A DNA stretch of 64,000 bases from Dehalococcoidia bacterium (lineage in GTDB: Bacteria; Chloroflexota; Dehalococcoidia; SpSt-223), in assembly GCA_025054935.1 (NCBI GenBank), contig JANWZD010000010.1, positions 1 to 64,000 on the forward strand, in the 5' to 3' direction. Below are positions 27,078-39,510 of the stretch, in pieces (within the stretch, counting starts at the first letter, position 1; every line of letters begins with the position of its first letter). Under the pieces are notes generated by a model, which was given only the letters and a program-made list of their open reading frames with translations, had not been told where the DNA came from and ran no database searches. A program made the position numbers and the translations under genes.

Positions 27078-27584
27078 ATGGCGCTCCAATGTGAGTCTCG
27101 GTCCGGTCTTTTCCGCCCGTGCGGCGAGACGGCGGTTGGCGTCTGCCACTACTGCAACCGTCCCTTCTGTGCTCGGCATGGCGGCGAGGGCGCCGAGCGG
27201 GAGTGGGTCTGCTTCCGCGCCCGCTGCCAGATGAAGACAGGCGTCATCGGCGTTGCGTTGGCAAGCCGGCGCCGCGCCCGGCTCCGCAATAGCGAAGGGT
27301 TGTGCGGTGCCCCGGCGTGCAGCGCGCGCGCTCCTCAGACGCCTTGCTCCCTCTGCAGTGGACGCTATTGCGTGGCGCATCTCAACGCGCGGACGTTCCG
27401 CGTGCTGATCAGCCCAAGCGACGCCCCGCCTCGCTACCGCCGGGAGCGCCACTATCTCTGCGACGACTGTGACGCCGTGATCGAGCGCTACCGACTGATC
27501 ACGCTGCCTCCCATTCCAGCGGATGATGGCGATTCAACGCGCGCAGCTTCAGAGCGCGTCGAGAGTGAGGTGTCGGCCCCATGA
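27078..27584 (+). CDS. cysteine-rich zinc-binding protein, unknown function
   Basis: 168 residues with two similar cysteine/histidine modules resembling B-box or treble-clef zinc fingers. Module 1, residues 5-57: CESRSGLFRPCGE, CHYCNRPFCARH, then CFRARC. Module 2, about 82-140: CGAPACS, CSLCSGRYCVAHL, then CDDC. Each offers enough ligands for two zinc ions in a cross-brace. No catalytic domain. The C-terminal 30 residues are acidic and probably disordered. First gene of a three-gene operon; its stop overlaps the membrane-protein start. Likely a protein-protein or membrane-recruitment adaptor, by analogy only. Confidence 0.75.
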   Translation: MALQCESRSGLFRPCGETAVGVCHYCNRPFCARHGGEGAEREWVCFRARCQMKTGVIGVALASRRRARLRNSEGLCGAPACSARAPQTPCSLCSGRYCVAHLNARTFRVLISPSDAPPRYRRERHYLCDDCDAVIERYRLITLPPIPADDGDSTRAASERVESEVSAP

Positions 27585-28579
27585 CTGCGCGACCTGCGAT
27601 CTCGAGCGGCGAACTAAAGGTCCTAGGCGCTGGCGTTGCGGTGAGCGTTGCGCTCACCCTACTGACCCGTCTCCTCGGCAAACGCCTCGACCCCATCCCG
27701 AAACGGGAGGAAGATATCTACCCGTACCAAGCGCGCCAGCCCCACCCGATGGGAGAACTGAGCGCCTGGGTGCTCTATGTTCTCCATCAGCTGTTCCAGT
27801 GGGGCTGCATCTACTGGGCGCAGACCCGCCCGCGCAAGTATGTCGACACCGTACACCCCGTCAACGTTGTCGCCCTTCTCGGCAACACCGTCTTCGCCAT
27901 CCTCCACCTCATCCAGACCCACCTCTGGTACGACGGGCTGGCGCGCCGGATCTCGGTGTGGGCGTCGCAAGGCTCGGTTATCCTGCTCCTGTGCCTCGCG
28001 CTGCTGATTGAAAATCCCCGCCGCGGGATGATCTTCGGAAAGCCGCTTCCCTTCCCGCGCCGGGTGATCGACTTTGTCCGCAAGTACCACGGCTATTACA
28101 TGTCGTGGGCAACGACCTTCACCTTCTGGTATCACCCGATGGAAGGGAACCAAGGGCACCTGAGCGGGCTGATCTACATGTTCTGGCTGCTGATGCAGGG
28201 CAGCCTGATGTTCACCCGCTCCCACATCAACCCTTGGTGGACAACCCTGCTTGAGCTGGCGGTGCTGCCGCACGGCGTGCTGGTCGCCCTGATCCGCCAT
28301 CCCCGCAACTGGACGATGTTCGCCTTCGGCTTCATTGCGATGTTCGTTCTGACGCAGATGCAGGGCCTGGGGCTGAAACTGCGGACCCAGCTGGCGATCG
28401 CCGCAACCTCGCTCGCCGGCGCGATCCTCGGCTACCGCAAGCGCGGCCTCCGTGCCGCCGAAGAGCCGTTGCGCATCCCGATCATTGAGTATGGCGTGGC
28501 AGCGGTGCTCGCTGGCGCCATTGGCGGCCGCCAATGGCTCGACGACCGCCTTGCCGCGCGCCGGAACGGTCACCAATGA
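27581..28579 (+). CDS. polytopic membrane protein, unknown function
   Basis: 332 residues, about seven or eight hydrophobic helices by eye (for example VLGAGVAVSVALTLL near 13-27, VNVVALLGNTVFAILHLIQ near 93-111, GSVILLLCLALLI near 130-142, a pair around 190-240, and two near the C-terminus). Several histidines lie at helix ends (HLIQTH, FWYHPMEGNQGH, SHINPWW), a spacing that could hold a metal or heme, but no known motif is met. Basic C-terminal tail. Coupled by ATGA overlaps to the zinc protein upstream and the 65-residue protein downstream. Confidence 0.75.
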   Translation: MTARPAISSGELKVLGAGVAVSVALTLLTRLLGKRLDPIPKREEDIYPYQARQPHPMGELSAWVLYVLHQLFQWGCIYWAQTRPRKYVDTVHPVNVVALLGNTVFAILHLIQTHLWYDGLARRISVWASQGSVILLLCLALLIENPRRGMIFGKPLPFPRRVIDFVRKYHGYYMSWATTFTFWYHPMEGNQGHLSGLIYMFWLLMQGSLMFTRSHINPWWTTLLELAVLPHGVLVALIRHPRNWTMFAFGFIAMFVLTQMQGLGLKLRTQLAIAATSLAGAILGYRKRGLRAAEEPLRIPIIEYGVAAVLAGAIGGRQWLDDRLAARRNGHQ

Positions 28580-28773
28580 ACCGTGAGCCCAATCCGCTTC
28601 TGGTCCCTGCCGCCATTTCGCTCGGCGCGCTGACTGCCGGCTTCCTCGGCTGGCTGATCGGACGCGACCGCGGCTACTACGATGGACTGCGCAGCCACGC
28701 CGCCGGCTTCCTCATCGTTGCAGGCGCTGGCCTCGGGTTTGCCGCAGTCGGAAACCTGGTGCGCCGCCGCTAA
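28576..28773 (+). CDS. small two-helix membrane protein
   Basis: 65 residues: hydrophobic segments at about 8-25 (LLVPAAISLGALTAGFLGW) and 39-58 (HAAGFLIVAGAGLGFAAVG), joined by a charged loop LIGRDRGYYDGLR, ending in Arg-Arg-Arg. ATG 28576 gives an ATGA overlap with the upstream membrane protein and replaces an upstream-extended frame at 28534. Likely a partner subunit of that protein; no family recognised. Its stop overlaps by 4 nt the stop region of the convergent GT39 gene. Confidence 0.7.
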   Translation: MNREPNPLLVPAAISLGALTAGFLGWLIGRDRGYYDGLRSHAAGFLIVAGAGLGFAAVGNLVRRR

Positions 28774-31160
28774 TCGTCGAGCGCGACCCAGCCAAGCGTG
28801 AGCGCCTCACGTCCCTGCACCGGAAGCGGCGCTCCATCGGGGCGGAGCAGCCGCAGCTGGAGCTGATAGCGGCCGCGAGGCAGGCTGCCCGAAAGCGCAA
28901 GGTCGAAGCGGCCGCTCGCGACCCCCTCCGCCGCCCACAGCGCCGGTGGGTCGGCAGGACCAGCAGGCGGCTGCTCGCGCTCGGCGACAACCCGGCCGTG
29001 CTGGTCGAGCAGCCGAAGGGAAGCGACCGCCGGCGCTGCCGGGCCGACCAGCCGCCAGTTCAGCACTACCGTCAGAGCTTGCCCTGCTCGCGCCGTGCTC
29101 AGCTCAAACAGGGTCTGTGGACCGTCGACGGTCTCAATCGTCGTCCGGCGCGCCGCCCCCGCGTCGGAAGGAAGAAGCCGCACCGCTTCCAGGGCGAACC
29201 GATTGTCAAACACGGCGAGCGTCCGCCCAGTCGACGGGGCGCGCCTGACCCGCACTTCGCCGAGGTCGACGTCGTTCCCAATGCGGCCGCCGTCGCTCCG
29301 TCGGTAGGCCCCCGCAACCACGCGGTAGACGCCGGGCGGTGTCCATGCAGGGACGACAAGCCCCCGCCGCTCCAGCAGCCGCTCCCCTGCCGCCCACTGG
29401 CCAGAGAGGCGCATGCCGGTATCCGGCTCTTCATCGCGGCCGGCCCAGCCGCTCCCATCCTGGCCGCGAAGGTGGAGGAAGAGCACGACGCGCTCCTCGA
29501 CGGAACGGCTCGCCTCCCAGCTGACGAGAACAGGAAGCGGCGCTCCGGCGGTCAGCTCTCGGCTCGCAGGAGCCGCCGCGATCGCGAGCCCATTCGGGAG
29601 CGCGGTCGGCGGCGGCAGGAGGGGGTCGGGCGCGGCGACGTAGCGGGCAACCCGCAGCGCACCGATCATCCGCTCGTCGACCCGATACGCCGCGCGATCA
29701 AGCCACTCTTCGAGGGGAAAGGCAGGATCGCGCCGCCCAACGCCCGTGAAGACAAGCCACAGCTGGCGGCCCTCTCCGAGCAGTGCCGGCCATTCGGACG
29801 GAGGCAGATCCCGCATTGCCACCAGACGCGGGAGGGGGTCGAGGCGGATGCGCAAGTAGCCGGCCTGCCACCACGGCTGAAGAATGACCGCGTCCTGCGC
29901 GCTCGCTCCGGCCAGCTCCTCTCCAAGCCGAACGGCATCCGGTTCGAGCATCCCTCGTTCGACCGGCAGCGTCATGGCGAGCGCAAGGAGCGTGATGACC
30001 GCGAGCGCGCCGCCCGCAAGCAGAGCCCAAGAGCGGCGAAGCGCAGCGAGCGGCACAGCGATCGCGAGGAGGACGAGGGGAACAAGCCCGATAAAGAATC
30101 GGGGACGTCCAAAGAGGGGCTGAGCGACATAGATCGCTGTTGCGCCAACGAGTACAGCGCCGGCGGCGAGCAGCGGCCAGCGAGGCCAGCGTCGGGCAGA
30201 GAGTAGGGCTCCGCCGGCGACTGCCCACCAGAGAAGCGCCAGTAGGACCGCGGGGACGAGCGGAACAAACGTGCCCACCGGCACAGCCACCGCGAGCGAG
30301 CCGAGGAAGTGAAGCGCCGTCGGCTGGGGGGCCACGCCGGCGATGGTCCGCTCAGTGTGGCGCAGCGACTCGCCGAGCGCAGAGGCGAGCCACGGCAGCC
30401 AGAGTGCGCCTGCTCCCCCGAACGGCCAGAGCGAGCGGATGGCGGCAGCAAGCGCGCGAAGCACTTCAGTCCGCCGCTCTCCCGTGCTCCTTGCCGGCGG
30501 AACTGCCGACCCCGCGCCGCCGCCATCTCCCCGACGGAGAGAGCGTGCGCCGACAGGAGAAGAGAGCAACGCGACAACTGCGGCGGCAACGATGACAACG
30601 ACAGCGAAGTAGTGGGTCATCAATGCCGCCCACGCGAACACCAGGAGAGCGAGAGCGTGACGCCATGACCGTTGCGGTCGGGCAGCGAGCAGGAGCACGA
30701 GGAGCGAGAGCAGCGCAAGGAGCGCATACATGCGCGGCTGCCGGCTGGAGACAACAAGCGTCGGACTGATCGCGGCGAGGAGGCCGACCGCCGTCCCCGC
30801 GCCTGCGCCAGCGAGCTGGCGGCCAGCAGCGAGAAGCAGCGCGACAAGCAGGACGCCGCAGAACAGCGACGGCAGCCGAGCGCCAAGTTCATTCCAGCCG
30901 ATGAGATCGAGGCTCAGCCGCAGCAGGTAGTAGTAGCCCGGCGGATGGCTATCGACAGCAGTCGCCGGCGCGATCCCGCCCCAGCCCTGCATGGCGAAAA
31001 AGACGCTCGCCGCCGCGTCGCCGAAGAGGACGAGGTCACTGAGACCGGCAAGCCGGACGCCAAGGGCACAAAGCAGCACCGCCGCGGCGGATAGCGGCCA
31101 CGGCGCAGCCGTCCACACGCTGCGCACTCGCGCCGTTGGGGGCGGCAGCGCAACGGTCAT
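28770..31160 (-). CDS. GT39-like membrane glycosyltransferase with C-terminal beta domain
   Basis: 796 residues. The N-terminal ~480 residues are a multi-span GT-C membrane glycosyltransferase (GT39/ArnT/PMT type) using polyprenyl-phosphate sugars. LVLFGDAAASVFFAMQGW near 42-59 holds the catalytic-type Asp of the first periplasmic loop, followed by DSHPPGYYYLLRLSL, the classic HPP-YY block. After the last helix comes a soluble part of about 300 residues rich in beta strands (LPVLVSWEASRSVEERVVLF; PPGVYRVVAGAYRR), probably extracytoplasmic. ATG 31160, one base after the upstream stop, was preferred to GTG 31193. Last gene of an envelope-polysaccharide operon. Acceptor unknown. Confidence 0.83.
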   Translation of the reverse strand: MTVALPPPTARVRSVWTAAPWPLSAAAVLLCALGVRLAGLSDLVLFGDAAASVFFAMQGWGGIAPATAVDSHPPGYYYLLRLSLDLIGWNELGARLPSLFCGVLLVALLLAAGRQLAGAGAGTAVGLLAAISPTLVVSSRQPRMYALLALLSLLVLLLAARPQRSWRHALALLVFAWAALMTHYFAVVVIVAAAVVALLSSPVGARSLRRGDGGGAGSAVPPARSTGERRTEVLRALAAAIRSLWPFGGAGALWLPWLASALGESLRHTERTIAGVAPQPTALHFLGSLAVAVPVGTFVPLVPAVLLALLWWAVAGGALLSARRWPRWPLLAAGAVLVGATAIYVAQPLFGRPRFFIGLVPLVLLAIAVPLAALRRSWALLAGGALAVITLLALAMTLPVERGMLEPDAVRLGEELAGASAQDAVILQPWWQAGYLRIRLDPLPRLVAMRDLPPSEWPALLGEGRQLWLVFTGVGRRDPAFPLEEWLDRAAYRVDERMIGALRVARYVAAPDPLLPPPTALPNGLAIAAAPASRELTAGAPLPVLVSWEASRSVEERVVLFLHLRGQDGSGWAGRDEEPDTGMRLSGQWAAGERLLERRGLVVPAWTPPGVYRVVAGAYRRSDGGRIGNDVDLGEVRVRRAPSTGRTLAVFDNRFALEAVRLLPSDAGAARRTTIETVDGPQTLFELSTARAGQALTVVLNWRLVGPAAPAVASLRLLDQHGRVVAEREQPPAGPADPPALWAAEGVASGRFDLALSGSLPRGRYQLQLRLLRPDGAPLPVQGREALTLGWVALDD

Positions 31161-31161
31161 G

Positions 31162-34100
31162 CTAGCGAGCCGGTTCGGCGGCGGCGTCGACACGCGCGCG
31201 GCGGTCGCGCCCGGCTAGCCGCCGCACGAGCGCGAGATCCTCGCGGTCGATCCCTCCAACAAGCGCAAGCGCCGGGAGATAGATCGCGCCGCCGACGATC
31301 GCGAGGACCGGCCACGGCACGCTCGCTGCGAGAAGCATGACCGCGCCGCCAGCGATCCCGGCGGCAAGAGCGGGGCGCAGCAGCAGGCGCGGCGAAGGCA
31401 GCCATCGCAGATCCTGCCTGATCGCGTAGAAGAACGGCAGCAACAGGACGATCTCGCTCAGCACCGTCACGGCGGCAGCGCCGGGATAGCTGAACTGCGG
31501 AATGACAAGAATATTCGCGACAATATTGAAAGTAACGCCAATCACAAAGGCAAAGGTGAGATAGCGCTGACGATTGAGCGCAATAAGCACATAGTGCGTG
31601 ATTGAATTGACGTAACTGAATGGCAGGAACCAGATCAGAATTTGAAGCGCGATAACCGACGGCTGAAACTCTTCTCCAAAAAAGAGAAGGATGATCGGTC
31701 CTGCTAGCAGAGTGGTCAGCACCGTAATCGGCAAGCTGATGCTGAGCAACAGCTTCAGCGAGCGTTCGAAGCCTAAACGCAGCCGCTCCGTCGAAGAGAC
31801 GGCATAGCGGCTGAAGATCGGAAAGACCGCGAGGGTGAAGAATGAGGGAATGATATTCAGGCCATCGATAAACTTATACGCCGTCGTGTAATACCCTGTC
31901 GCCGCATCGCCCTGCATCGGCTTAAGAAAGAGCACATCGATCCGGAAGAAGACACTGCTCAGAAAGTTGTTGATCATGAGCGGAAAGGACAACACCCACA
32001 GCCGCCGCGCCGCGGTCCAGTCGAAGCGCCAGGTTGGCTGGAAGAACGTCGTCGCGAGCAGCCGCCAGAAGATAAGCGCCGTCACCACATTGACAATGAG
32101 TGAGACCGCGCCAAGCCCCGCAATGCCAAACCCGCTCAGCAGCGCTGCCAAGCCGAGCGCGACTCGGAGAAGCGTGGCGATGCTTGTCAGCATCGCCGGG
32201 TATTCCATCTTCTCGAACGCGTAGAACACGGCGCTGTATGACGCGCTGAGCGCCCCCGGGATCAACCCGAGGGCGAAGAACGCGATCGTCAGAGCGCCAG
32301 CCGGCGTCAAGTTGAAGGCCGTCCAGTAGAGCGCGACCAGGCTCGCGACTACCGGCAGCGAAGCGATCACCAAGCCGAGACGCAGCCCGATAATGTTCGC
32401 AAGGTAGTCTCGCGCTCGCGTCCGGTCTTGGGCGACTTCGCGCGTCAGCAGGGTGCCCAGCCCAAAGTCGGTGAAAATTTGGAAATACCCGATCAGGACG
32501 ACGGCGAACGCGTATTCGCCGACGGTAGCAGGGCCGAGCAGTCGGGCGACAACGACGGCGAAGGCGAGGTCAACGAGCCGGTTGGCCAGCTGGGTCGCCA
32601 TCGGGGCAAAGCTGTTCTTCAGGATCCGCTGAAGCGTCGTCCCATCGTGCGGAGCGCGATAGACGGCCGACCAGAGCGCGTAGGCAAGGCCCAACACGAT
32701 CGCAAACAGCCCCATGAGCGAGAGATAGGCGCCCAGTTGGAAGCTGAGCGGACTGTAGCGGAAGACGACGCGATGCTCGCCCGGCGGCAGTTCGATCGCT
32801 CGGAACAGGCTGTTGGCGCGGAAAATCTCGACCTCGCGCCCATCGAGCGTGGCGCGCCACCCCGGAAAGTAGCTATCGGTCAGGAGCAGAAGCGCTGGCG
32901 CATCCGCGCGGGCGATAATCTCAATCCGAGTAGGCTCATAGCGGACGAGTTCGGCCGAGCCAGTCCCGCCGCTGCGCGCTAGTCCCGCCGGACCCTCTAC
33001 CGCCGCCACCGCTCGCGGATCGAAGTCCGGTCGGGTAATCACCGCCCGCGCCTCTGCGGCATCTCGGACTGGGACAACCGTGCCGACCACAAAAGCGCGG
33101 GGAAGAGCGCGTTCATTTCGATAGACGTTAATCTCGCCGCGGTAGACCTCCGTCCAGCCCGGAAGCCCGATGTTCTGCGTGGTGAGGACATACTTCACGC
33201 CGAGGAGGTCGAGCAGGGGCGACTGCAGCGAGCTCGCTTCGGTCAGCTTGTTGATCATGCTGTAGAGCAGCCCACTCGGGGGCTCCATGAGCGACCAATA
33301 GTCGACATAGGAGCGCAAGATCACGGTGTCATAGCCCCGAATGTCGGGAAGCCCGAACAGCATATTGCTGTTCGGGCGGAGCGTATCGTCATAGTTGAAG
33401 GACGTAATCCGGAACAGTCCCGGGTCCGCCTTGATCGCGGCAATGGAAGGCGGGACGAATTCGGCGAGACGAACGGGGCTCGCCGTATTGAACCCCCCGA
33501 ATGCGACAGTCAGGTCGACCGCCGTCACGACCCCAATCGCCACCACGCCAGCCGTCGGCCGACGTGAGACGATCCAGAACGCGGCGGCCACAAGCAGCAG
33601 CATGAGCGCGAAGCCGGCTACCACGCCCGCTTCATAGGAGTAGAACATCTCTGCCGTGGGAAAGGCGCGCCGCAAGCTCGTTGAGCGAGCGAGCAGCGCT
33701 TCGGCAGCCGCGAGCGTCGGCCCGAGGGCAAGCCGGCTGAGCGCGATCGCTGCACCGATCGCCAGCCCGAGCGCGGCACAGCCAAGCGCCAGCCGTTTCG
33801 CTATCCGGTCGGGCCGCGCACCCGGCGCTGTCTCGGCAGGAAGCTGGTCGCCTCCTCCAAGCGGCTGAGCAGCTGGGTCCTGTTGAGTAGCCGAAGCGGG
33901 GAGGAGCGCCGGCATGTCCGAGCGGCGGCGCAGCAACGTCTCCGCGCCGAGCGCGGCCAGCACCGCGAGGCAGAAGGTCGCCGGGTAGACCCATCGGAAC
34001 GGCGTGTGCAGTTGGTTCACGCCGGGGATCTGCCAGATGAGAAAGTAGAGTGGCGTGCCGAAGGCGAGCAGCAGACAGAAGAGCAGATAGCCGCCGAAGA

Positions 34101-35346
34101 ACGCGGTGTAGCGGTCGCGCCGGCGGAGCAGCGCCAGCCCTGCGAGCACGAGCGGGGCGAGGCCAACATAGACCGCCCCCTCGACGTAGTTCTTCACCCC
34201 CCAAAACGGATAGTCGCGCACGTTGCCGAACGCATCGCGCGAGCCGCTCACCGGCTCGAGCCGGCCGGTGACGAGATTGAAATAGTGATGGTGAGTGGGG
34301 TTGCCGAAAATGTCCGGAATGGCGAACGCCAGCACATGCTGAGGCGGCAGCGCCCACCCGACGACCTCGGCGTAGGTGACTTGGCCGATACGATAGTTCT
34401 CGCGGATCAGCTCGAAGAAGGGGATGACCTGCGCCGCCGCAAGGGCGAAGCCGATCCCGACCAGCGTCAGCAGCCCGAACCCGGCGCGGAGGGTCGCGAC
34501 CAGCTGGCGAGAGCGCGCGAGATAGAGCGTCAGCCGGACGGCGCTATAGGCCATCAAGGTGAAGAGGAAATAGAAGCTGATCTCGAGGTGCCCCGCGAGC
34601 AGCTGCATCCCGACCGCAAGCGCCCCCACCGGGACAACCACCCGTGCCGGGGGCGCGAGGCCGAGCCCGGCAGCTCCCCACTGCCCTCGCTCGAGGTAGC
34701 GCGCGACGAGCTCGCACATCGCCAGCCCGAGAGGCAGCCACACCGCAGCGCTCAGGATCATCGGCCAGACGAACGAGACGACGAGAAAGCCGGCGAGTTC
34801 GAAGGTGACCGCGCCCACGAATGCCGCCGGACGCTGGACGCCGATGATCCGCAGATAGAGATAGGTGAAGGCGCCGGCAAAGAAGAGGTGCAGTGCCGCG
34901 AAGGGGGCATAGGCGGCCGCGACCGGCAGGACGAGAAAGAGCAGCCCGAAAGGATACAGCGCGGCATACTGGCCCGCTGCGAGAAACGGCTGCCCCGCGA
35001 AAAGATAGGGGTTCCAGAGCGGCAGTTGGCCGCGCTGGTAGCTCTCGGCGATAAACCGCTTCCAAGAATAGTTTTGCAGGATAAGGTCGGCGATCAGTTC
35101 GTTGTGGACGCGAGTGACCCCCTGCTCGGCGGCGAACGCGCTCCAGGGCGGCGCGGTGTAGAGCGTATCAGCGGGAAGCAGCGGGTCGCCGAAGAGGAAG
35201 CGGCCGCAGAAGAGCACCGCCACCAGCGCGAGCGCGCCGACAGCGAGCCCATCGGGAGAGCGCGCAGCAAACGCCCCGATGCGCCCGAGACGCGCTCCTG
35301 CCTTGCGTCCCCTCCCGACGCCTAGTAGCGCCGCTTGATCTGCCAC
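31162..35346 (-). CDS. YfhO-like membrane protein fused to a polysaccharide flippase
   Basis: 1394 residues in one uninterrupted frame. Residues 1 to about 880 are YfhO-like: a large multi-span protein with ADTLYTAPPW and GQLPLWNPYLFAGQPFL in the first outer loop, and the closing LTDSYFPGWRATLDG block near 840, typical of YfhO proteins involved in glycosylating envelope polymers. From about 905 (LKNSFAPMATQLANRLVDL) to the end is a Wzx/MATE-type lipid-linked oligosaccharide flippase with about 12-14 helices (LLGPATVGEYAFAVV, REVAQDRTRARDYLANIIG). These are usually separate proteins. GTG start overlaps the GT2 gene by 25 nt. Predicted work: modifying and translocating a lipid-linked glycan. 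Confidence 0.85.
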   Translation of the reverse strand: MADQAALLGVGRGRKAGARLGRIGAFAARSPDGLAVGALALVAVLFCGRFLFGDPLLPADTLYTAPPWSAFAAEQGVTRVHNELIADLILQNYSWKRFIAESYQRGQLPLWNPYLFAGQPFLAAGQYAALYPFGLLFLVLPVAAAYAPFAALHLFFAGAFTYLYLRIIGVQRPAAFVGAVTFELAGFLVVSFVWPMILSAAVWLPLGLAMCELVARYLERGQWGAAGLGLAPPARVVVPVGALAVGMQLLAGHLEISFYFLFTLMAYSAVRLTLYLARSRQLVATLRAGFGLLTLVGIGFALAAAQVIPFFELIRENYRIGQVTYAEVVGWALPPQHVLAFAIPDIFGNPTHHHYFNLVTGRLEPVSGSRDAFGNVRDYPFWGVKNYVEGAVYVGLAPLVLAGLALLRRRDRYTAFFGGYLLFCLLLAFGTPLYFLIWQIPGVNQLHTPFRWVYPATFCLAVLAALGAETLLRRRSDMPALLPASATQQDPAAQPLGGGDQLPAETAPGARPDRIAKRLALGCAALGLAIGAAIALSRLALGPTLAAAEALLARSTSLRRAFPTAEMFYSYEAGVVAGFALMLLLVAAAFWIVSRRPTAGVVAIGVVTAVDLTVAFGGFNTASPVRLAEFVPPSIAAIKADPGLFRITSFNYDDTLRPNSNMLFGLPDIRGYDTVILRSYVDYWSLMEPPSGLLYSMINKLTEASSLQSPLLDLLGVKYVLTTQNIGLPGWTEVYRGEINVYRNERALPRAFVVGTVVPVRDAAEARAVITRPDFDPRAVAAVEGPAGLARSGGTGSAELVRYEPTRIEIIARADAPALLLLTDSYFPGWRATLDGREVEIFRANSLFRAIELPPGEHRVVFRYSPLSFQLGAYLSLMGLFAIVLGLAYALWSAVYRAPHDGTTLQRILKNSFAPMATQLANRLVDLAFAVVVARLLGPATVGEYAFAVVLIGYFQIFTDFGLGTLLTREVAQDRTRARDYLANIIGLRLGLVIASLPVVASLVALYWTAFNLTPAGALTIAFFALGLIPGALSASYSAVFYAFEKMEYPAMLTSIATLLRVALGLAALLSGFGIAGLGAVSLIVNVVTALIFWRLLATTFFQPTWRFDWTAARRLWVLSFPLMINNFLSSVFFRIDVLFLKPMQGDAATGYYTTAYKFIDGLNIIPSFFTLAVFPIFSRYAVSSTERLRLGFERSLKLLLSISLPITVLTTLLAGPIILLFFGEEFQPSVIALQILIWFLPFSYVNSITHYVLIALNRQRYLTFAFVIGVTFNIVANILVIPQFSYPGAAAVTVLSEIVLLLPFFYAIRQDLRWLPSPRLLLRPALAAGIAGGAVMLLAASVPWPVLAIVGGAIYLPALALVGGIDREDLALVRRLAGRDRRARVDAAAEPAR

Positions 35347-36035
35347 ACTCGCCAGGACGCCTCGATCGCGATCGCCGGCGACATCTTTGAGACGCCGACC
35401 GTGCGGTCGTCGAAGACGATGGGGATCTCAACAACCCGAAACCCGGCGCGTTCGCAGAGATACGCGATTTCGATCTGAAAGGCGTAGCCGTTGGACCGGG
35501 TCTCAGCGAGAGGAAGCTGCTCAAGGACATGACGCCGAAAGAGCTTGAAGCCAGCAGTCGCATCGCGCACGCGCAGACCGAGGATCGCGCGGGCGTAGGC
35601 GCTGCCCCACCACGAGATGAACTTGCGCCAGCGCGGCCACGTCGGGTCGACCATGCCGCCCGGCACGTAGCGCGACCCAACCACGACGTCGGCATCTTCT
35701 ATCGCCGCCACCATCGCCGGCAGATACTTCGGATTGTGCGAGAAGTCAGCGTCCATCTCGAGAACGAGGTCGGCCCCCTCCGCAAGCGCCCGCCGGAAGC
35801 CGTCGACATAGGCACGGCCAAGCCCCAGCTTTGCCGGACGATGGAGAACCCGGACTCGGCCATCTGATTGCGCGGCGAGCTGGTCGGCCAACTGTCCCGT
35901 CCCGTCCGGCGAGTTGTCGTCCACAACAAGCACATCCAACTCACATCCGGCGATCTGAAGGCTCAGCAGGGCGTCGAGCATCACCGGAAGGTTTTGGACC
36001 TCGTTATAGGTGGGAAGGACGACCGTCAGGTGCAA
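35322..36035 (-). CDS. polyprenol-phosphate sugar synthase (GT2, Dpm1-like)
   Basis: GT-A family 2 enzyme that loads a sugar (often mannose) from a nucleotide donor onto polyprenyl phosphate, supplying donors for GT-C enzymes such as the neighbouring GT39. Motifs: VVLPTYNEVQNLPVML at the N-terminus, LVVDDNSPDGTGQLA (DDNSPDG), and LVLEMDADFSHNPKYLP with the metal-binding DAD. VRDATAGFKLFRR and SNGYAFQIE follow, typical of Dpm1-type proteins. Soluble, no C-terminal helices. TTG 36035 was chosen because GGAG lies 5 nt upstream and the N-terminus then matches the family; a GTG at 36089 would add 18 atypical residues. First gene of the envelope operon. Confidence 0.9.
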   Translation of the reverse strand: MHLTVVLPTYNEVQNLPVMLDALLSLQIAGCELDVLVVDDNSPDGTGQLADQLAAQSDGRVRVLHRPAKLGLGRAYVDGFRRALAEGADLVLEMDADFSHNPKYLPAMVAAIEDADVVVGSRYVPGGMVDPTWPRWRKFISWWGSAYARAILGLRVRDATAGFKLFRRHVLEQLPLAETRSNGYAFQIEIAYLCERAGFRVVEIPIVFDDRTVGVSKMSPAIAIEASWRVWQIKRRY

Positions 36036-36151
36036 GCCTACTCCGTCCCGCCAGCACGGCGTCTGACCGGGGATTCTAGCGAGGGGCACCCCCTCCGTCT
36101 AGCGCGACGGCGAAGCTAGCCGGCGGCGTCTCTCGCGAGAGCACGGTCGGC

Positions 36152-39100
36152 TTACGCGAGGTCATCTACGGTCGTCAGGCGAACGCCGCTGGGAACAGGT
36201 GCCGGCACTCCCTCCTGCGCCGGGAGAGCAAGCCGCCGCTGGAACGGCCGCCAGCTCGCCAGCCGCCGCAGCCCGCCATGCATGTCGTCAAAGAAGGTGT
36301 ACATCGAGGGCACGACATAGAGGCTCAGGAACGTAGAGGTGATCATGCCCCCAATGATGAGCGCTCCGATGCTCCGGTAGAGTTGGCCGCCCTCCTCGGC
36401 GCCGATGGCGATGGGCAGCAGCCCGAAAACGAGCGCCGCTGAGGTCATCAGGATGGGGCGCAGCCGCGTTGGGCCCGCCTCGAGGATCGCCTCCAAGCGG
36501 CTTCGCCCGCGCTGCCGCAGCGTGTTGGTGTAGTCAACGAGCAGAATTCCGTTCTTCCCCACCAGCCCCATCAGCACGATCATGCCGATCAGCGACAGTA
36601 GATTGAGCGTCAGTCCGGTGATGGCGAGACCGAGGAACGCGCCAACCGTGGCAACGGGTAAGGCGAACATGGTCGCAAACGGCATAACGACGCTCTCATA
36701 GAGCGCGGCGAGCAGCATGTAGATCAGCACAATAGAGAGCGCGAGCGCGAAAAGAAGCTGGGTGAATGCCTCGGCCTGCTCTTCGGCTTCTCCCCCTTGG
36801 GCGACAGTGATCCCATCCGGCAGCGTGCGGCGGAGCTCGGCAAGCCGAGCCTCTAGGGGGTTCGTCACGTCATTGAGCGGGGTCTGGCCAACGAGCGACG
36901 CTTGAATGGTCGCTTGAGGCACGCGGTTGCGCCGCGTGATCGCGGCCGGCCCAGCCACCTCTTCGACCCGCGTCACTTGGCCGATGCGGACCTGCACCGG
37001 CTGGCCATCCCGGAGGACGGTGATCGGCACCGCCTCAATGCCGCTGAGCGAGCCGCGGGCGCCGACATTCGCAATCACCCGCACATCCTGCTCGCTTCCG
37101 CCGGTCGGCCGGAACTTTGTCGCAACCGTGCCCTCCACCGTCGTGCGCAAGGCGCTCGCTACCTGGTCGGCAGTCAGCCGGGCATCGGCAAGCCGATCGC
37201 GGTCAACGACCAGCCGGTATTCGGGATTCCCGAGCGAGGAACTGTTCCTCACCGTGTCGACGCCGGGGATCGAGCGCACGATCTGCTCAACTTGGGCGGC
37301 AACCCGCTCCACCTCTGCCCGGTCCTGGCCTTGAACGCGCACGACTATCGGATACTGACCGGAAAAGCCGCCGCCGTTGGTGACATTGACGATCGCGCCG
37401 TCGATCCCGCGCACCTTGGGCTTCAGCTCTTCGATGATTTCGAAGACGGAGCGCTTGCGCTCATGGAGCGGATGCAGCCGAACGAAGATCTGCCCGGTGC
37501 GCGTGTTGCTGCCCGTTGCGAGAAATCCGATGGTGCCGCCGCTGCCTGCAGTTGAGAGATACTGTTCCACTTCGGGAATCTGATCCAGCTCGGCTTCGAT
37601 CTTCCGGAGCACTGCTTCGGTCGCCTGAAGCGACGAACCCGGCGGCAGCTCGACATCGACCTGGATGAACGAGTCGTCCGATTGCGGAATGAATTCGAAT
37701 TTGACGAAGCCAAGCGGGATCAGCGAGAAGGCGAGGACAAGCGACGCGGCACCCACCAAAGGCGGGATCCAGCGCGCCGCGAAGATTGTCCCGAGGAAAC
37801 GGCCGCCGGGGAGAGGAGGCTGGTACCGCTTTGTCAGCAGCCAATGGAGAGAGCGCTGATAGTTGCGCTCGATCGTGTCGAACATCGCATTCCAGCCGCG
37901 GACAAACCAGCCCCAAGGACCGCCCCCAATCCGAAGCGCCTTCTGGTTCAGCCAGCGCGACGACAGCATCGGCGTCAAGGTGAAGGAGATGAAGAGCGAG
38001 GTCAGCACCGCAGCGACAATCACCAGCCCAAACTGGCGGAAGAAGCTGCCGGTGATCCCGGAAAGAAAAGCAACCGGCAAGAAGATGACCACATCAACGA
38101 GCGTGATCGCGATCGCAGCAAGTCCGATCTCCGAACGGCCGTTGAGCGCAGCCTGGAAGGGATTCTCCCCGAGTTCGAGGTGACGGACGATGTTTTCGAT
38201 GACGACGATCGAGTCGTCGACCAAGACGCCGATCACCAGCACGAGCGCCAAGGTCGACATGATATTCAGCGTAAAGCCGAGGATCGCCATCCAGAGGAAG
38301 GTCGTCAGCAGCGACGTCGGGATGGCGAACAGAACGATGGTCGTGCTGCGCAAGGTGTGCAGGAAGACAAGGAGGACCAGCCCCGTGATGATGATCGCCT
38401 CGATCAGCGCTCGCTGCACCCCATAGAGCGAGTTGCGCGTGAACGCCGACCGGTCGAACACTTCAACGACTTGGACCCCAGCCGGCAGCGAGCGATTGAT
38501 CGTGGTCACGGCGCGGCGGATATTGTCGGCGGTCTGGACTTCATTCGCGGTGGCATTTTTATTGACCGTGATCGCCACCGCCGGTTTGCCGTTGAAGCGC
38601 GCGATCGTGGTGACCTTCTTCGTCGCCTGCTGGACTGTCGCGACATCACGGAGGAGGATCGGGCCCGTCCCCGGATTGGCGATGACGAGCTGCCCGAGCT
38701 GATCAGTCGTTTGGAAGAGACCGGAGAGCCGAATATTCAGTGACCGGTCGCCATCCGAGAGAGCGCCTCCGGGACGGCTCTGATTGTCGCGCGCGAGCGC
38801 GGCAATGATCTGGTCGTAGGTCAGGTTGTACGCCGCCAGTTTGACCGGGTCGACGACGACGTGGATCTCGCGCGCCAGCCCGCCGGAAAGCGCGACTTGC
38901 GCGACGCCGTCGAGCGCTTCGAGCCGAGGGCGGATGTCGGTATCGGCGATGCGGTAAATCTCCTCGAGCGGACGGTCACCTGTCACGGCGAGGAAGTAGA
39001 TCGGGGTGGCAGTGAAGTCGAACTTCGAGACAACCGGCGCGAGCGCCTCGTTGGGCAGTTGGCCCCGCGCCGCCCCCACCCGGCGCTCCACCTCAACTGC

Positions 39101-39412
39101 CACCAGATCTTCGCGCGCGCGGTCGTTAAAGGCGACGAGGACGATCGACTGTCCTTCCGCCGAGGTCGACTGGATATAGTCGATGTTGCTGATGCCCGCG
39201 ACGGCATCCTCGATCGGCTTGGTGACAAGCCGCTCAACATCCTCCGGCGCCGCGCCGGGATAGGCAGTGACGATCGTGACAAAAGGCGAGCTGACCGTTG
39301 GGTACAGCTCGGCGTTCAGGCCGCGGAAGGAGATTGCGCCGAGCAAGGCCAGCCCGAGGATCACCATCGACATGAAGACAGGGCGAAAGATCGCAACTCG
39401 GGTCAGTCCCAC
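36152..39412 (-). CDS. RND-family efflux/transport permease
   Basis: 1086 residues, the AcrB/HAE1-like inner-membrane pump driven by protons. It starts VAIFRPVFMSMVILGLALLG and shows the duplicated six-helix halves. The proton-relay aspartate pair is visible in GVLVDDSIVVIENIVRH (about 388-404), and SFTLTPMLSSRWL and LMGLVGKNGILLVDYTN mark further conserved helices. GTG 39412 was preferred to 39445 because GGGAAAGG precedes it and the residues match the family start. No membrane-fusion protein or outer-membrane channel gene lies beside it. Upstream promoter at 39539-39511. Confidence 0.93.
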   Translation of the reverse strand: MGLTRVAIFRPVFMSMVILGLALLGAISFRGLNAELYPTVSSPFVTIVTAYPGAAPEDVERLVTKPIEDAVAGISNIDYIQSTSAEGQSIVLVAFNDRAREDLVAVEVERRVGAARGQLPNEALAPVVSKFDFTATPIYFLAVTGDRPLEEIYRIADTDIRPRLEALDGVAQVALSGGLAREIHVVVDPVKLAAYNLTYDQIIAALARDNQSRPGGALSDGDRSLNIRLSGLFQTTDQLGQLVIANPGTGPILLRDVATVQQATKKVTTIARFNGKPAVAITVNKNATANEVQTADNIRRAVTTINRSLPAGVQVVEVFDRSAFTRNSLYGVQRALIEAIIITGLVLLVFLHTLRSTTIVLFAIPTSLLTTFLWMAILGFTLNIMSTLALVLVIGVLVDDSIVVIENIVRHLELGENPFQAALNGRSEIGLAAIAITLVDVVIFLPVAFLSGITGSFFRQFGLVIVAAVLTSLFISFTLTPMLSSRWLNQKALRIGGGPWGWFVRGWNAMFDTIERNYQRSLHWLLTKRYQPPLPGGRFLGTIFAARWIPPLVGAASLVLAFSLIPLGFVKFEFIPQSDDSFIQVDVELPPGSSLQATEAVLRKIEAELDQIPEVEQYLSTAGSGGTIGFLATGSNTRTGQIFVRLHPLHERKRSVFEIIEELKPKVRGIDGAIVNVTNGGGFSGQYPIVVRVQGQDRAEVERVAAQVEQIVRSIPGVDTVRNSSSLGNPEYRLVVDRDRLADARLTADQVASALRTTVEGTVATKFRPTGGSEQDVRVIANVGARGSLSGIEAVPITVLRDGQPVQVRIGQVTRVEEVAGPAAITRRNRVPQATIQASLVGQTPLNDVTNPLEARLAELRRTLPDGITVAQGGEAEEQAEAFTQLLFALALSIVLIYMLLAALYESVVMPFATMFALPVATVGAFLGLAITGLTLNLLSLIGMIVLMGLVGKNGILLVDYTNTLRQRGRSRLEAILEAGPTRLRPILMTSAALVFGLLPIAIGAEEGGQLYRSIGALIIGGMITSTFLSLYVVPSMYTFFDDMHGGLRRLASWRPFQRRLALPAQEGVPAPVPSGVRLTTVDDLA

Positions 39413-39510
39413 GTTCTGGTCCTTTCCCTCAGGCAGCGCCGCCACAACGGCAACGGGAGGGGCCCGTGGCGGGGATAAGCGACACTCGAAGGTTCAGCGT
39501 TGTCGAAGTA

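Follow-up and report, generated by a model that had tools for sequence, protein, structure and literature searches.

The analysed window is a stretch of 64,000 nucleotides from a Dehalococcoidia bacterium, and on its reverse strand (-) an ORF check shows an uninterrupted frame of 1394 aa that runs from a GTG at 35346 to a TAG at 31162. The frame encodes a fusion of a YfhO-type transferase with a flippase, and its parts and neighbouring genes are located as follows.

31162-35346, reverse strand: fusion gene, YfhO-type GT-C transferase plus MOP/Wzx-type flippase (open frame, Pfam, orthologues)
32662-35262, reverse strand: YfhO half, about residues 29-895, predicted GT-C fold whose final membrane helix spans 867-895 (model, Foldseek)
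34954-35190, reverse strand: putative first extracytoplasmic loop, about residues 53-131, holding Asp60 and Asp87 (conservation in 39 fusions)
32749-33429, reverse strand: putative extracytoplasmic domain, large and beta-rich, about residues 640-866, followed by the last YfhO helix (model)
32626-32661, reverse strand: short linker, probably cytoplasmic, about residues 896-907 (models, junction comparison)
31195-32625, reverse strand: flippase half, about residues 908-1384, predicted MOP exporter fold (Pfam, Foldseek)
35322-36089, reverse strand: GT2, probable polyprenyl-phosphate sugar synthase (PF00535, 5mlz match, linkage)
28770-31193, reverse strand: PMT_2 (GT39-like) membrane transferase with an extra C-terminal part (PF13231, 55.8 bits)

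The GT2 gene overlaps the start of the fusion gene by 25 bp, and the PMT_2 frame, counted from its first GTG, overlaps the end of the fusion gene by 32 bp. An AcrB-type RND transporter gene lies on the same strand directly upstream of GT2 (36152-39445), and among the loci compared this position is common only to the same-genus relative. A membrane-protein-like frame at 27581-28579 has no Pfam match at 0.001 and is conserved in the same-genus relative. Elsewhere in the source genome there are at least five standalone YfhO-like genes (L064 and L106-L109) and another flippase gene (L002, G000:C14:4521-5945), whose matched stretch contains two stop codons; this may reflect a pseudogene or a boundary effect.

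The initial annotation had proposed that a single frame joins a YfhO-like protein to a flippase, and the open frame, the Pfam matches, and the orthologues bear this out. It had placed the borders of the two halves near residues 880 and 905; the YfhO half now ends at about residue 895, and the rest of the assignment stands. No missed frameshift or stop is found at the junction. The same-genus genome contains the whole fusion frame with 75% identity, and between the two copies residues 861-925 show 11 differences at first, 9 at second, and 34 at third codon positions, an excess at the third position indicating that translation and selection extend across the junction. Relatives do not uniformly carry two separate genes, as the fusion recurs across them, and the identical frame is present in dozens of independent assemblies, some of them assembled into a single contig or a few (G477, G618, and G299). 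One relative (L019) appears split, but the break in its frame coincides with a stretch of N in a metagenome contig. A sequencing or assembly error joining two genes is thus ruled out by the relative's frame, the independent assemblies, and the junction codons, and we give it next to no probability.

The YfhO half matches PF09586 with 50.1 bits (Pfam cut-off 28.5) in two stretches, the best at residues 805-876, and a profile of the whole fusion finds no match among the sequences of solved structures. Two AlphaFold2 models were built, one from 39 aligned fusions and one from 38, and that of the YfhO half has a mean pLDDT of 92 and a pTM of 0.92. Its Foldseek matches are AftD (E 9.7e-7) and ArnT (4.1e-6), then oligosaccharyltransferase (OST) and protein mannosyltransferase (PMT), all of them remote GT-C matches with TM-scores by target of 0.25-0.5 for the best five. 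The predicted fold of the YfhO half is thus a GT-C fold. In the first outer loop, Asp87 is present in 39/39 fusions and Asp60 in 95%, most standalone YfhO proteins from these genomes likewise have an Asp where Asp87 lies, and the strict DXD spacing is absent from this loop of the fusions. Residues W111, N112, R166, H253, R319, E389, R451, and W830 are common to the fusions and at least 80% of 17 standalone YfhO proteins. Because these family-core residues are kept, the fused YfhO copies look active as judged by sequence, and purifying selection acts on the YfhO half. MOP flippases have a cytoplasmic N-terminus. If the last YfhO helix runs from outside to inside, the N-terminus of the flippase would likewise lie in the cytoplasm. 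YfhO of B. subtilis has the same layout, a large domain followed by one last helix (PMC5836110).

The flippase half matches Polysacc_synt (PF01943) at residues 908-1181 with 107.5 bits (cut-off 28.2), and the Polysacc_synt_3, MurJ, and MatE profiles likewise exceed their Pfam cut-offs. Foldseek places its model closest to WzxE (9g9n, TM 0.81) and MurJ (6nc6, TM 0.80), and the second half is therefore predicted to have the MurJ/WzxE (MOP) fold. The nearest profiles are exopolysaccharide and O-glycan Wzx models, and the NCBIfam equivalogs tested fail far below their cut-offs (Wzx_EPS 75 against 800 bits, PRK10459 55 against 273, and Oglyco_Wzx 44 against 720).

With an 18-row profile, and counting both complete fusions and those truncated at the edge of a contig, we found it in 14/294 genomes of the same class and, by the count of listed matches, in 42/400 sampled Chloroflexota genomes. 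A broad genome scan with six peptide patterns returned named full-length matches from Chloroflexota only, mostly from Caldilineaceae, and one match labelled only 'bacterium' groups among Caldilineaceae in the tree. The absence of the fusion outside Chloroflexota is based on this one scan and on a plasmid search, in which flippase and YfhO genes are present separately and never fused.

The two halves differ in their trees, the roots of which are not fixed. In a quick tree of the YfhO half, the 32 fused copies group together, separate from the 17 standalone copies (SH-aLRT 100), and this single clade rules out independent fusions among the sampled loci. The flippase-half tree interleaves 38 fused rows with 22 that had been called solo, the latter nesting among the fused ones; about 8 label changes are needed, at least three of which are forced by well-supported branches, and one solo row is really the L019 fusion broken at a run of N. 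When N-terminal segments of the solo flippases were compared with the last YfhO helix, five outscored almost all control windows. The helix is convincing in L066, L068, L069, and L080, weaker in L074, and not found in the remaining solo flippases. In L066, L069, and L080, the extra N-terminal helix ends in WRR.YR and resembles the last YfhO helix, and it is likely, judging from these sequences, to be the scar of a lost fusion partner. L068 (6894-9584) has the middle of YfhO deleted and the flippase intact; H253 and R319 are replaced, and the positions of E389 and R451 are missing. The simplest account is one fusion early in the phylum followed by several losses of the YfhO half; the reverse direction, in which solo flippases gained the helix, is less likely. 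The standalone YfhO nearest the fused clade by score is L118 (1052-3562, 574 bits), and its genome also has the fusion.

The neighbours had been described as a polyprenol-phosphate sugar synthase and a GT39-like transferase, and profiles and the 5mlz match agree with this, with a DPMS-like GT2 upstream and a PMT_2 protein downstream. The GT2 protein belongs to PF00535, carries the GT-A motifs DD.S.DGT and DAD, and has dolichol-phosphate-mannose synthase (5mlz, 5.7e-31) as its best solved relative; it scores under the cut-off of the PpgS equivalog. A GT2 orthologue lies directly upstream on the same strand at 26 of the 39 fused loci with enough upstream sequence, and the other 13/39 have no adjacent GT2; the orthologues at fused loci are 49-84% identical where measured. 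In the class sample, the GT2 orthologue is present in 12/14 genomes with the fusion and in 22/280 without it (Fisher p 6e-11, uncorrected for kinship). In four fusion genomes (G429, G471, G387, and G478), the orthologue lies on another contig beside a GtrA gene, as is expected if the GT2 product is a lipid-phosphate monosaccharide. No GtrA (PF04138) match was found in the source genome, and GtrA is present in 26/35 fusion genomes checked, including that of the same-genus G001. A systematic replacement of GtrA by the fusion is ruled out, as many fusion genomes keep GtrA. PMT_2 is next to the fusion in five further genomes of the class besides the source genome. At L077 (6235-8857), a GT2 orthologue adjoins a solo flippase with no YfhO, and the family has the fusion elsewhere.

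Because flippase and GT-C transferase are one protein and GT2 adjoins it, the best reading is a two-gene unit for donor supply, flipping, and transfer. We favour, at somewhat better than even chances, a compact multi-component transmembrane glycosylation system in which GT2 loads, the flippase half flips, and the YfhO half transfers. GT2 would load polyprenyl phosphate at the inner face with a sugar taken from a nucleotide sugar, and the flippase half would turn the lipid-phosphate sugar over. The tethered YfhO half would then use the flipped sugar as donor at an outer-face GT-C site with Asp87 and perhaps Asp60, and pass it to a surface acceptor held by the large outer domain; PMT_2, encoded downstream, may draw on the same donor. 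The fusion itself, the two folds, the kept family-core residues, the linkage to GT2, and the one origin of the fused YfhO half with its later losses are computational results, whereas we infer the substrates, the acceptor, the direction of flipping, and direct hand-over between the halves. The GT-C enzymes matched by the YfhO-half fold (ArnT, AftD, and PMT) use polyprenyl-phosphate sugars. The identities that the initial annotation gave to the halves and neighbours are upheld by profiles, predicted folds, and trees, and its physical joining of modification and translocation fits the conserved GT2 partner and the kept core residues, although the functional side of that joining is putative. Its cargo, a lipid-linked glycan that is itself modified, gives way to a polyprenyl-phosphate monosaccharide donor as the more likely one. 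Wzx proteins are best known for carrying diphosphate-linked oligosaccharides. That a Wzx protein flips monophosphate monosaccharides is proposed only, for GacK (PMC8035078). Also against the favoured system stand the 13/39 fused loci with no adjacent GT2, the presence of GtrA in 26/35 fusion genomes checked, and the several lineages that retain the flippase but no YfhO, so that the flippase has its own role. A stronger form, in which the fusion is bifunctional, GtrA-independent, and phylum-wide and its Wzx-type domain hands polyprenyl-phosphate monosaccharides directly to its own transferase domain in a channelled manner, is possible at less than even chances.

The flippase half could instead move a diphosphate-linked oligosaccharide to which the YfhO half adds side-branch sugars at the outer face, with the donor flipped by another protein. 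The nearest profiles are consistent with this, though far below their cut-offs, and so is the fold, which is nearest to MurJ and WzxE, movers of diphosphate-linked cargo; the presence of GtrA in 26/35 fusion genomes also means that a separate donor flippase is often available. But within the window no polymerase or repeat-unit assembly genes are recognised next to the fusion, its constant neighbour over the loci is a single DPMS-like GT2, and the source genome is without detectable GtrA, so that we regard an oligosaccharide cargo as rather unlikely. The fusion might also be a tether or expression device only, with the halves in separate pathways or one half catalytically unused. In favour of this, loss or truncation of the YfhO half occurred several times and left the flippase in place. 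Such a device is nevertheless distinctly improbable, as nearly all of the 38-39 diverse fusions retain the core residues in both halves, the YfhO half is under purifying selection, and core residues are lost in the truncated L068, as expected only after function is lost.

The favoured system of GT2, flippase half, and YfhO half would pack three usually separate steps of cell-surface glycosylation, by their putative functions, into two adjacent genes, and the fusion looks to have formed once and later come apart in several lineages, where remnants can still be recognised. It is largely an open question which protein flips polyprenyl-phosphate sugars, and equally whether cargo passes directly from flippase to transferase; both questions are testable in one protein because the natural fusion fixes the pairing and a 1:1 ratio. 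A lipid-acting enzyme fused to its own flippase is found in MprF, where the families are unrelated and the chemistry is that of aminoacyl-phosphatidylglycerol. We found no description of a YfhO-flippase fusion in openly licensed papers (searches for YfhO with flippase fusion and YfhO with Chloroflexi). Compared to the Wzx/MurJ MOP flippases (PF01943, PF03023), the flippase half has the same Pfam matches and a predicted fold at TM ~0.8, whereas a whole transferase precedes it and it falls outside the curated Wzx equivalogs tested. YfhO of Bacillus subtilis and Listeria (PF09586) shares the many membrane helices and the large outer domain before the last helix, and it is a putative GT-C transferase that works with a GT2 (PMC5836110). 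In contrast, the fused clade has an extended first loop, the extra Asp60, and a typical KNYVE motif, and here YfhO is fused to a flippase and partnered by a short, DPMS-like GT2 (255 aa). Known multi-component systems combine a GT2, a flippase (GtrA, or a proposed Wzx type in Gac), and a GT-C transferase (PMC8035078, PMC7389260). CsbB-GtcA-YfhO and GacI-GacJ-GacK-GacL thus have the same three components, the Gac flippase being of the proposed Wzx type (PMC8035078), whereas here flippase and GT-C are one protein, no GtrA is found in the source genome, and the host belongs to Chloroflexota and not to the Gram-positive Firmicutes of the described systems.
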